From assembly GCA_040902225.1 (NCBI GenBank), contig JBBDXT010000004.1:872309-936308 (forward strand): a stretch of DNA of 64,000 nucleotides, given 5' to 3'. The position numbers and the translations under genes were made by a program. Below, piece by piece: positions 35,983-40,049 of the stretch. The DNA is from Chloroflexota bacterium. GTDB taxonomy: Bacteria > Chloroflexota > Limnocylindria > QHBO01. Below the pieces are notes generated by a model. That model had not been told where the DNA came from and did no database searches. It saw only the letters and a list, made by a program, of their open reading frames with translations. The stretch's first letter is position 1; each line of letters opens with the position of its first letter.

Positions 35983-36165
35983 GCTGACAGCCTGCTCCTG
36001 CAGGCCGCCATCGCCGGCGGCATCAGCGCGCCCTGGATGCTGCGCTCCAAGCTCCTGGCGCTGGTCAGCCGGCTCCGCGGCCGCCCAACGGCGACCGCTC
36101 CCGATGACGCCGCCTGCCCGCTCCCCTACCCAGGGGCTGACGAGCCGCCGACCAGCGAGCGGTAG
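35983..36165 (+). pseudogene. Possible 3' remnant of a plus-strand membrane-protein gene
   Basis: An open frame without a start reads ADSLLLQAAIAGGISAPWML, then RSKLLALVSRLRGRP and a Pro/Asp-rich tail to a TAG at 36163. A hydrophobic helix followed by a basic stretch is how many membrane proteins end. It lies in the short gap between the groESL promoter and tatD and overlaps the tatD 3' end. It could be a chance frame in high-GC DNA; I rate it weak. Confidence 0.25.
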
Positions 36166-36947
36166 GCCGCCGCCACCTCCGAGGCGATGGCCTCCGGTGA
36201 CGTCCCGCGAAGCCGCGCCAGCTCAGCTGTCACCCGCAACGCCGTGGTCGGCTCGTTCCGCTGTTCGCCGCCTCCCGGCGCCAGCCAGGGCGAATCGGTC
36301 TCGACCAGATAGGTTCCTTCGGGAAGCGCCGCAGCCGCGGCTCGCGGACCTCGGGCCGACGCGAAGCTGACCGGTAGCGCGAAGCTGATGAGGTAGCCGC
36401 CCGCGGCCAGGTCCCGCGCCAGGATCGCGTCGCCCGAGAAGCAGTGCAGCACTCCGCGCAGGGTGCCCGCTCCGAGACCCTGCCACGCCAGGAGGGCGGT
36501 CCGTACCTCGTCGTGTGCCTCGCGGTCGTGGACCAGCACCGGCTTTCCGACCGCCGCCGCCATCGCCAGCTGACGCTCGAGCGCCGCACGCTGGGCCTCC
36601 CGCGGCGACAGGTCCCGATGGAAGTCGAGGCCGATCTCCCCCACCGCCACGACCCGCGGTTCGGCGGCAAGGGCGGCCAGCTCGTCCCAGTCGGCAGGCG
36701 TGGGAACGGCCGAGAAGTGCGGATGCACGCCCACCGCCGCGTCGATCAGCCCCGGATGCGCCGCGGCCAATGCGACCGCCGCCCGCGACGAGGCAAGGTC
36801 GTAGCCCGGGACCAGGATGCGGGCGATCCCCGCCTCGACGGCCCGCCCGATGACCGCCTCGCGATCGGCGTCGAAGGCGGCGTCCTGAAGGTGACAATGC
36901 GAGTCGATCAGCCCGGGCAGGTGGGCCGGCGTGCGGTGGCGACTCAG
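36126..36947 (-). CDS. tatD: TatD-family metal-dependent deoxyribonuclease
   Basis: A complete TatD sequence is readable: metal motif DSHCHLQD at the start, GVHPH, VGEIGLDFHRD, VLVHDREAHDEV, GVLHCFSG and VETDSPWLAP. However no ATG, GTG or TTG precedes the essential first motif in this frame. The first standard codon, a TTG at 36770, would delete the H-x-H metal site. The best start is a CTG at 36945-36947 that overlaps the metG stop as CTGA, giving 273 residues against a family norm of ~260. Translation coupled to metG is therefore likely. A sequencing indel is the alternative. Confidence 0.82.
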   Translation of the reverse strand: MSRHRTPAHLPGLIDSHCHLQDAAFDADREAVIGRAVEAGIARILVPGYDLASSRAAVALAAAHPGLIDAAVGVHPHFSAVPTPADWDELAALAAEPRVVAVGEIGLDFHRDLSPREAQRAALERQLAMAAAVGKPVLVHDREAHDEVRTALLAWQGLGAGTLRGVLHCFSGDAILARDLAAGGYLISFALPVSFASARGPRAAAAALPEGTYLVETDSPWLAPGGGEQRNEPTTALRVTAELARLRGTSPEAIASEVAAAYRSLVGGSSAPG

Positions 36948-38530
36948 GGAGGGTCTCCGGCCTGCGCCTCGTCGCCCTCAGATAGCTCGACGCGCGGGAA
37001 GAGCGGCTGCGCGTCACCCGTCTCCCAGCCGACGGGTACCGAGCCCCATGTCAGAAGCCGATCCAGACCCGGGCCGCCAGCGCCACGATCGTCGTACGGG
37101 ACGGACACGCCCAGCTGGGCGTGCAGCTCCGCGGCGGCAGCCGGGGTGAAGGGCGCCATCAGGTGCCCCAGGATGCGGCACGTCTCCGCCATGGCGGCCA
37201 GGATCGCCCCCACCCGCGCCTGGTCCCCCTCCTTGTTGCGTGCCCAGGGCGCCTGCGACTCGGCGTAGCCGTTGGCGGCGGAAGTCAGGTCCATGATCGC
37301 CCCGAGGGCCTCGTCGAGGTGGAGGCGCCCCATGGCGCCGTGATAGGACTCCACCGCGGCGGCGGCGGCGGCCCGCAGCTCCTGGTCCGCTGCAGCGTCA
37401 GCGCTGGCAACCGGCGGCAAGGCCCGATCCAGGTAGCGGGCGCTCATGCTGACCGTCCGGTTGACGAGGTTGCCCAGGTCGTTGGCGAGCTCGGCGTTGT
37501 AGCGCCGCATCAGGCTCTCGGCGGTCACGTCGCCGTCGCGATCAAAGGGAATCTCGCGCAGGACGACGTAGCGCACGCCGTCGACCCCGAACAGCGCCGC
37601 CGCCACCTCCGGATCGAGGATGTTGCCGCGTGACTTCGACATCCGCTCGCCGCGCATCAGCATGAAGCCGTGTGCGAAGACGCTCTCGGGCAGTGGCAGC
37701 CCCGCGCTCATCAGCATCGCCGGCCAGTACAGGCAATGGAAGCGCGTGATGTTCTTGCCGATGACGTGGAGGTCCGCCGGCCACCAGCGCTCAAACGAGC
37801 CCAGGTCGTCGGGGAAGCCGGCGCCGGTCAGGTAGTTGGTGAGCGCGTCGAACCAGACGTAGATGCGGTGCGACGGGTCGTCGGGGAAGGGGATCCCCCA
37901 TGTCCCGCCGGCGCGACTGATCGAGAAGTCGGTAACCCCGTCGTTGAGCCAGCCGAGCACCTCGTTGCGGAAGTGCTCCGGTTCGCAGAAGGACGGGTGC
38001 TCGAGATACAGCTGTTCGAGCGCGCCCTGGTAGCGCGACAGGCGGAAGAAGTAGTTCTCCTCCTCCAGCCACTGCAGCGCCAGGGTGGGATGGTCCGGGC
38101 AATGCCCGTCGACGATCTGGCTGTCGGTCTTGAACTCGTTGTCGCCGGGGCAGAACCAGCCGGCGTAGGTGCCCTTGTAGATGTCGCCGGTCGCCAGCGC
38201 GCGGCGCACCATCTCGGTCGAAGCGGCGGCGTGGTCGGGGTCGGTGGTGCGGATGAAGCGGTCGTAGCTGATCTCGAACCGATCGAACCCGGCCCGCCAG
38301 CTGGCAGCCCATTCGTCGACCAGGGCGCGTGGCTCGACCCCGCGCTCACGTGCCTGGCGCTCGAGGTTGGCGGAATGCTCGTCCATGCCGGTCAGGAAGC
38401 GGACGTCCTTGCCCAGCAGCCGCTGGTAGCGGGCAATGGCATCCGCCCCGATTGCCTCGAACAGCGAGTGCAGCGCCGGTCCGGCGCTCGGGTAGAAGAT
38501 GGCCGTGGTCAGGTAGAAGCGATCAGCCAC
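36944..38530 (-). CDS. metG: Methionyl-tRNA synthetase
   Basis: A 528-residue enzyme from the GTG at 38530. It has the Rossmann start FYLTTAIFYP, GADAIARYQRLLG, VRFLTGMDEHS, the WFCPGDNEF knuckle region, EEENYFFRLSRYQ, VWFDALTNYLTGAGFP, the KMSKS equivalent ERMSKSRGN and the anticodon-binding helical domain. It charges methionine to tRNA(Met). The first class I signature is abnormal: where P-HIGH is expected the sequence reads PALHSLFE. There is no C-terminal tRNA-binding extension. It lies between the ferredoxin reductase gene (5-bp gap) and tatD (overlap). Confidence 0.93.
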   Translation of the reverse strand: MADRFYLTTAIFYPSAGPALHSLFEAIGADAIARYQRLLGKDVRFLTGMDEHSANLERQARERGVEPRALVDEWAASWRAGFDRFEISYDRFIRTTDPDHAAASTEMVRRALATGDIYKGTYAGWFCPGDNEFKTDSQIVDGHCPDHPTLALQWLEEENYFFRLSRYQGALEQLYLEHPSFCEPEHFRNEVLGWLNDGVTDFSISRAGGTWGIPFPDDPSHRIYVWFDALTNYLTGAGFPDDLGSFERWWPADLHVIGKNITRFHCLYWPAMLMSAGLPLPESVFAHGFMLMRGERMSKSRGNILDPEVAAALFGVDGVRYVVLREIPFDRDGDVTAESLMRRYNAELANDLGNLVNRTVSMSARYLDRALPPVASADAAADQELRAAAAAAVESYHGAMGRLHLDEALGAIMDLTSAANGYAESQAPWARNKEGDQARVGAILAAMAETCRILGHLMAPFTPAAAAELHAQLGVSVPYDDRGAGGPGLDRLLTWGSVPVGWETGDAQPLFPRVELSEGDEAQAGDPP

Positions 38531-38535
38531 CGCGC

Positions 38536-39282
38536 TCAGTCCTCCCTTCCCTTGGGCCAGTACAGCTCCTTGCGGACCTGCTCCGGCGGGAAGCCACGCG
38601 CCGATGCCATCGCCTCGACCGCCTCGATCATGTCGGGGTTGCCGCACAGGTAGATGGTGGTGTTCTCCGGCGTGAGCCGATGCTTGTCGAGCTGACCCTC
38701 GACGATCGCCTCGACCCGGCCGGTGAGCCCGGTCCAGTCCGGGCAGTTCTGCGGCCGGGATACCGTCCCGGCGTACCTGAGCGGGAAGCTCCCCGAGGCG
38801 ACGAGCTCCTCCAGCTGGCCGCGCCAGGCCAGGTCGAAGTCGTGGCTCGCGCCATGCAGCAGGACCAGGTCGCGCGTCTGACCGCGGGCGCGCAGCGTCT
38901 CGATCATGCTCATGAACGGCGCCAGGCCGGTGCCGCTCGCCACCAGCAGCCCGGTTCGCCCATCGTCCTGGAGGACGAAGCGGCCCTTGGCGCCCTTGAT
39001 GTTGATCGGGTCGCCCACCCGCCGCTCCCAGAGGAGCGGCGTGAACTCGCCACCCTCCACCAGGCGGATGAAGAACTCGTACTCGTCCAATCGGTCGGCG
39101 GAGGAGGAGATTGACATCGGGCGCTGCACCAGCTTCTCGGGACCCATGAGGCCCAGGGTGGCGTACTGGCCCGGATTGAAGGGGAACGGGTTCTCGAGCG
39201 CCTGCACGCCGACGATCGCCAGGCCCTCGGCGATCTCCTCCCAGCGGCTCAGCCGCCCGGTGTACGGGTAGTCGGTGCTCAT
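38536..39282 (-). CDS. Ferredoxin--NADP(+) reductase-type flavoprotein
   Basis: A 248-residue protein from the ATG at 39282. The FAD domain contains PFNPGQYATLGL and the flavin motif RPMSISSS; the pyridine-nucleotide domain contains LLVASGTGLAPFMSMI and TIYLCGNPDMIEAVE. This is the single-chain FNR layout, passing electrons between NAD(P)H and ferredoxin or flavodoxin. Its partner ferredoxin is not in the window. It is the first gene of an apparent fpr-metG-tatD unit. Confidence 0.88.
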   Translation of the reverse strand: MSTDYPYTGRLSRWEEIAEGLAIVGVQALENPFPFNPGQYATLGLMGPEKLVQRPMSISSSADRLDEYEFFIRLVEGGEFTPLLWERRVGDPINIKGAKGRFVLQDDGRTGLLVASGTGLAPFMSMIETLRARGQTRDLVLLHGASHDFDLAWRGQLEELVASGSFPLRYAGTVSRPQNCPDWTGLTGRVEAIVEGQLDKHRLTPENTTIYLCGNPDMIEAVEAMASARGFPPEQVRKELYWPKGRED

Positions 39283-39428
39283 GCGCGCGGCGTCCTCGAC
39301 TCGCCGGCCGCGCGGAGCGGCCGATTTCGTGCTCGAAAGGGGCCAAGTATACCGATGGCCACGGCTTGCCAGCCGCCGCCGCATGGGTGAGAGTTGCCCG
39401 CGTGCCACCGCCCAACGCCCCCCGAAGC

Positions 39429-40049
39429 ATGAATGTCGCCGGCCTGCGCCTGCCAGTGCGCGAGACGATCGTCGTGCTGGTCACGACCTTCGTGCTCGTG
39501 ATCGACTGGTACCACCCGCTCCTGGTGGGGATCGGTCCGGAGCTGAGCCAGGGACTGGCGCGAGTGGCGCTCTACCTGGTCGTGCCGATGCTGACCCTCC
39601 TCCTCCTCGGAGAGCGCCTGCGGGACTACGGCCTGCGCATCGGGGAATGGCGGATCGGGCTGCCGGTCATCGTCGGCCTGGCCGCACTGGCGACGCCGAT
39701 CGTCCTGATCGTTTCCGGGCTGCCCGACTTCGACCTCTACTACAGCCAGGTGCCCGCCTCGCTGCCCGGCGCCCTGGTCGGCAACGCGCTGGACGTTGGT
39801 GCGGCCGAGTTCCTGTTTCGTGGCTTCCTGATGTGGGCCCTGATCGGCCTTGCCGGACCGATGGGCGTCGTCCTGGCGACGTTCCCCTTCGTCTTCAGCC
39901 ACCTCGGCAAACCGGAGCTCGAGACCCTCTCGACCTTCTTCGGTGGGCTGACATTCGGATGGATCGCGTGGCGAACTCGATCGATCCTGTACGGCGCCCT
40001 CCTGCACGCCTACCTGATCAGCCTGATCGTGGTGGTCGCCTCGGCCTAG
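39429..40049 (+). CDS. CPBP-family intramembrane protease-like protein
   Basis: A 206-residue protein from the ATG at 39429 (a GTG at 39402 is possible) with about six helices. The family motifs are recognisable: AAEFLFRG in place of EExxxR, FVFSH for FxxxH, and LHAYLIS near the end. The first glutamate of the EE pair is alanine, but the second glutamate and the arginine remain. CPBP proteins are membrane glutamic proteases or scaffold proteins, some linked to bacteriocin immunity. It is convergent with and overlaps the next gene by 4 nt. Confidence 0.82.
   Translation: MNVAGLRLPVRETIVVLVTTFVLVIDWYHPLLVGIGPELSQGLARVALYLVVPMLTLLLLGERLRDYGLRIGEWRIGLPVIVGLAALATPIVLIVSGLPDFDLYYSQVPASLPGALVGNALDVGAAEFLFRGFLMWALIGLAGPMGVVLATFPFVFSHLGKPELETLSTFFGGLTFGWIAWRTRSILYGALLHAYLISLIVVVASA

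Follow-up and report, generated by a model that had tools for sequence, protein, structure and literature searches.

A methionyl-tRNA synthetase with an exchanged class I signature motif, shared by nearly a whole class of Chloroflexota

Among class I aminoacyl-tRNA synthetases, the HIGH motif counts as a defining, near-invariant catalytic signature. In the 64,000-nucleotide stretch of Chloroflexota DNA analysed here (the window), a gene for methionyl-tRNA synthetase (MetRS) encodes P-ALHS where P-HIGH would be expected. This raises the question of whether the gene supplies the working MetRS of its genome and, if so, how such a signature might serve.

The metG locus and its signature motifs

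The features of the locus are as follows.

36126..36770, minus strand: TatD-like frame downstream of metG, named by reading its sequence
36944..38530, minus strand: metG (528 aa, GTG start), the sole methionyl-tRNA synthetase gene of the genome
37631..37645, minus strand: RMSKS, second class I signature, with R rather than K as first residue
38372..38383, minus strand: DEHS, conserved block past the motif
38465..38476, minus strand: ALHS replacing HIGH, positions 1 and 3 exchanged, codons GCG CTG CAC TCG
38536..39408, minus strand: FAD/NAD-binding oxidoreductase, mechanical ORF upstream of metG
38540..38545, minus strand: Shine-Dalgarno-like GGAGGA, 9 nt gap to the metG GTG, by direct reading

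The metG frame opens with GTG at 38530-38528 and its stop codon ends at 36944; the TGA of the oxidoreductase gene sits 5 bases ahead of this GTG. TatD is a usual neighbour of metG, and the true start of the TatD-like gene probably lies further upstream than 36770. An 846-aa mechanical ORF (36944-39484, minus strand) represents metG run together, in frame, with a different reading frame of the oxidoreductase gene, metG being only the portion from 38530 down.

The N-terminal text of the protein is FYLTTAIFYPSAG-P-ALHS-LFEAIGADAIARY, in which Pro is encoded at 38477-38479, P-ALHS spans 38465-38479 and the His at motif position 3 is residue 23 (His23). At the same site, classical MetRS carry P-H-[I/L]-G-[H/T/N] and other MetRS HxG[HTNFY]. 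When aligned with the best-matching PDB MetRS sequences, A-L-H-S falls on H-I-G-H without a gap, which bears out the earlier, sequence-only reading that P-ALHS stands in place of P-HIGH. The same reading had described MSKS as intact, and the KMSKS signature is indeed present as RMSKS, whereas the His1 and Gly3 of the HIGH signature are lacking. The DEH block reads DEHG in many other MetRS, but DEHS or DENS also occurs in canonical Chloroflexota MetRS. A PROSITE PS00178 expression failed on all 137 swapped MetRS, yet 46 of the 81 canonical N-termini failed it as well; it is thus too strict to provide a clean test of the signature.

The genome (2.28 Mb in 7 contigs, 99.37% complete) contains a single place above the metG cut-off. 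Weaker matches fell on LeuRS (HIGH), ValRS (HVGH), CysRS (HIGN), ArgRS (TVGN) and IleRS, as well as on a LysRS-like frame of class I (HVGS) and another CysRS-like one (HLGH); for IleRS the N-terminal domain was scanned, and the other names come from sequence reading. A second metG elsewhere in the genome, which had been suggested as one way out, was accordingly rejected, the weaker matches being other synthetase-like frames. Two of these matches deserve a separate description. The LysRS-like frame (L347, C5:23300-25300), named from its sequence, carries TVHVGS and KMSSS, class I lysyl-tRNA synthetase being uncommon in bacteria. The two CysRS-like frames (L344 and L345) carry HIGN with KMARS and HLGH with KMSKS, respectively, and one of the pair may encode a related ligase instead of a CysRS.

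The protein scored 439.9 against TIGR00398 (cut-off 336.35) and 323.9 bits against PF09334 (cut-off 20.1 bits), and 564.6 against the stricter NF008900, below its cut-off of 598. Comparison with a relative (G002, protein 91% identical) gave a dN/dS of 0.089 over 523 codons; the gene is under purifying selection. An AlphaFold2 model (pLDDT 91.9) had the MetRS structure 5k0s as its best solved match (Z 47.4, 491 residues aligned), and all 50 structural matches listed were MetRS, so that the predicted model has the MetRS fold. The window gene is classed as a MetRS on the strength of its whole-protein score, its fold and its single copy, with a signature that differs.

Distribution and history of the exchanged motif

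We searched 400 Chloroflexota genomes for the DNA pattern TTxIxY....P[GAP]xH, using the reversed pattern as a control. The pattern matched 51 of the 400 genomes and the control none. Matches were concentrated in one class (50/55 genomes), which we take to be Limnocylindria, the records themselves saying Chloroflexi or Chloroflexota; among the other 345 Chloroflexota there was one match, in genome G337. The five class genomes without a match all belong to family f2. In four of these (G022, G028, G036, G040) the MetRS is of another type, described below, and for the fifth (G030) no metG was found in a metG search of the class genomes.

That search gave a match in 159 of 177 class genomes, and in 52 of the 53 of good quality. 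Loci were read from 149 of the 159, the counts that follow thus omitting 10 unread and 18 matchless genomes. Nine of the 149 encoded the other MetRS type, one of these being truncated ahead of the motif, as were two further loci; this left 138 MetRS of the same type with a readable motif, of which 136 were swapped: GLHT (102), ALHS (12), GLHH (11), GVHT (5), PLHS (4), GLHY (1) and GLHF (1). The remaining two, from genomes G052 and G173, read HLGH. The other MetRS type, found in nine f2 genomes (L142-L149, L168), is of about 600 aa with the motif text GPRHLGHV, and looks like a gene replacement.

Outside the class, 73 of the 74 rows read were canonical and one was swapped (G337, ALHY); 20 of these 74 were chosen from a separate set of 80 loci, and genomes may repeat. 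The 80-locus set comprised 64 canonical and 16 swapped motifs, the latter all from Chloroflexota records (12 ALHS or PLHS, 4 GLHT), and within this set all loci from outside Chloroflexota were canonical. Four other Chloroflexota genomes encode two different MetRS genes each, i.e., G359 (L265/L295), G237 (L262/L306), G332 (L300/L307) and G314 (L299/L298), with canonical motifs throughout. Given that the same swapped pattern recurs in 136 class genomes while the reversed control gave no match, neither chance nor assembly error accounts for it. The window gene is neither a lone oddity nor a dead gene. In the portions of the open-licence PubMed Central literature consulted, we found no report of a MetRS with the swapped motif.

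Altogether, 223 rows were read, of which 218 had a readable motif (five did not) and were counted. Positions 1 and 3 were His and Gly in 81 of these, and Gly, Ala or Pro and His in 137; neither possible intermediate, Gly/Gly (GxG) or His/His (HxH), occurred among the 218. The two positions are thus exchanged as a pair. The swapped consensus is [G/A/P]-[L/V]-H-[T/S/H/Y/F], with His at position 3 in 137/137. Position 4 is Ser or Thr in 123 of the 137 and His in 11, so the motif often contains a single His. As codons such as CAC CTG GGT and GGG CTT CAT show, the two states lie at least four base substitutions apart.

When the motif columns were left out of the trees, three changes were needed for the exchange (5-95% bootstrap range 3-3), and a topology holding the 37 swapped class rows of the tree together without the two HLGH rows was rejected (AU p 4.11e-69). 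As the HLGH pair is nested inside the swapped class, the state probably reverted there. With the root placed among canonical relatives, the history most likely comprised two gains, the first by the ancestor of the class and the other by G337, and a single reversion (G052/G173); local recombination could also produce an apparent reversion. The sequence-only reading had proposed asking whether MetRS of the ALHS form make up a clade; the swapped enzymes are nearly class-wide, with the HLGH pair nested among them and G337 outside the class. We found no compensating residue; of the columns on whose consensus all swapped groups agree, those of the motif are the only ones to separate swapped from canonical enzymes fully. 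As the G052 and G173 MetRS share the other residues typical of the class, no permissive residue can be named.

A proposed role for the third histidine

A precedent exists in IleRS2, in which the first and third signature residues are exchanged to give G/AXHH (Brkic et al., 2023; PMC10485003). Crystal structures of engineered IleRS2 exchange mutants place the Nε2 of the third His where the Nε2 of the canonical first His lies. The exchange is reported there to affect the activity of IleRS2 only mildly and to abolish that of IleRS1, so that the swap is not tolerated everywhere. It is further reported to shift the mupirocin Ki of IleRS2 by hundreds of fold, strongly increasing resistance, to have been gained more than once with a natural reversion, and to be exclusive to IleRS2 (PMC10485003).

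We are highly confident that the window gene encodes the working, and only, MetRS of its genome, with the class I signature in an exchanged form in which the third His replaces the first. H-x-G-[H/T..] would have become [G/A/P]-[L/V]-H-[T/S/H..], the imidazole that stabilizes the ATP transition state would come from motif residue 3 rather than residue 1, and the small residue at position 1 would make room for it, as in IleRS2. By analogy, His23 likely takes the place of the first His, and the enzyme is presumably active. That a neighbouring His takes over, as the sequence-only reading had proposed, thus appears to be the best interpretation, given the His in all 137 swapped enzymes and the IleRS2 structures. 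Against it count the loss of IleRS1 activity on the same exchange, the Ser or Thr at position 4 of most swapped MetRS, where exchanged IleRS2 retain His, and the failure to find a compensating residue.

Other explanations are less compatible with the data. It is exceedingly improbable that the window gene is a non-catalytic paralogue, with a canonical MetRS elsewhere doing the work. In several class I enzymes, activation slows roughly a thousandfold once the first His is mutated (PMC10485003), but the gene is the single MetRS of a nearly complete genome (99.37%) and is under purifying selection. Good-quality class genomes almost always have a metG match (52/53), and across the class 136 of the 138 readable MetRS of this type are swapped. 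An artefact of assembly or alignment, or a shifted register with HIGH elsewhere, has a probability close to nil: the class genomes are mostly fragmented assemblies and the named records are MAGs, but many assemblies agree and the alignment is gap-free. Helix 1 starts at motif position 2 in the models of both the window ALHS enzyme and the HLGH enzyme L084, so the models point to no register shift. A His-Gly-His placed elsewhere, one of the observations that the earlier reading had named as able to overturn it, is contradicted by the gap-free alignment and the common start of helix 1. It is also unlikely that the third His is purely structural, with another residue making the transition-state contact and ATP bound differently. 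In its favour, position 4 is often not His; on the other hand, position 3 is invariably His, no intermediate was seen, and many swapped enzymes have Tyr or Asn in place of the His in the nearby DEH block.

A further proposal concerns the origin of the swap and not the mechanism of the enzyme, namely that selection favoured the swap as a barrier to some natural inhibitor acting at the adenylate site of MetRS, by analogy with the mupirocin hyper-resistance of IleRS2. The effect of the same exchange on the mupirocin Ki of IleRS2 (PMC10485003) speaks for it, as does the IleRS of the class, which was swapped in 30 of 30 cases read (G/A-x-H-H/S). Against it, swapped IleRS is equally common beside canonical MetRS, being present in 19 of the 20 genomes for which a canonical MetRS had been read (the exception, G227, has HIGH), and the two are not linked. 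We know of no natural MetRS inhibitor of a mupirocin-like kind. Resistance to an adenylate-site inhibitor is therefore a possible but rather doubtful origin, and it is no less likely that the crossing took place without inhibitor selection, on a scaffold that tolerated it.

The 20 comparison genomes derive from 24 loci; G048 gave no readable motif, the MetRS of G054 is swapped, and G343 and G495, with swapped IleRS, were left out because their MetRS motif was unread. The IleRS counts come from a protein search, in which G337 gave no IleRS match; a narrower DNA pattern matched 2/177 genomes (one apparently by chance) and a text pattern 1/30. Given that the IleRS swap is as common with canonical MetRS, there is no sign of joint selection, and the idea that the two swaps were co-selected was dropped. 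The IleRS of the window's own genome (L343 / L349, C4:781860-782489) reads GVHH, the exchanged signature of mupirocin-hyper-resistant IleRS2.

Relation to known synthetases

There seems to be a second working form of the HIGH motif. The swap, previously reported for IleRS2, occurs here in the MetRS of nearly a whole class. That it is almost fixed in the one MetRS of a class points to an alternative of sufficient generality to arise in another enzyme, with no known drug as the driver. More broadly, we give about even chances to the idea that class I enzymes can work with either of two interchangeable signature forms, HxG or GxH, between which intermediates do not persist; lineages would cross in more than one enzyme, the MetRS of one class having crossed and one sub-lineage having come back. 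If this is true, the MetRS of the class should resist adenylate-site inhibitors that depend on the Gly, as exchanged IleRS2 resists mupirocin. Natural sister enzymes that share a scaffold, one with GLHH and the other with HLGH, would allow the interdependence of the two catalytic positions to be measured directly. Motif-based annotation would label the swapped MetRS defective.

The closest canonical relatives are the HLGF/HLGH MetRS of related Chloroflexota (f17; G052 = L084), which share the class-typical residues and differ from the window MetRS in having the canonical motif order. With classical bacterial MetRS (TIGR00398, PF09334; structures from Brucella, Mycobacterium and Aquifex) the window enzyme shares the MSKS block, the anticodon-binding domain and the fold, at 41-44% identity in structural alignments, but its first signature is without His1 and Gly3. 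Like the G/AXHH IleRS2 (PMC10485003), the swapped MetRS have Gly or Ala at position 1, a hydrophobic residue at position 2 and His at position 3; the window MetRS itself has Ala at position 1 and His at position 3, with Ser instead of His at position 4. It is not an IleRS, as its MetRS scores and fold indicate, and the IleRS of the genome is a separate gene. Unlike the exchanged IleRS2, in which the fourth His is kept, the swapped MetRS mostly have Thr or Ser at position 4, may also have Pro at position 1, and carry the swap near-fixed across one class, with no known link to an inhibitor.
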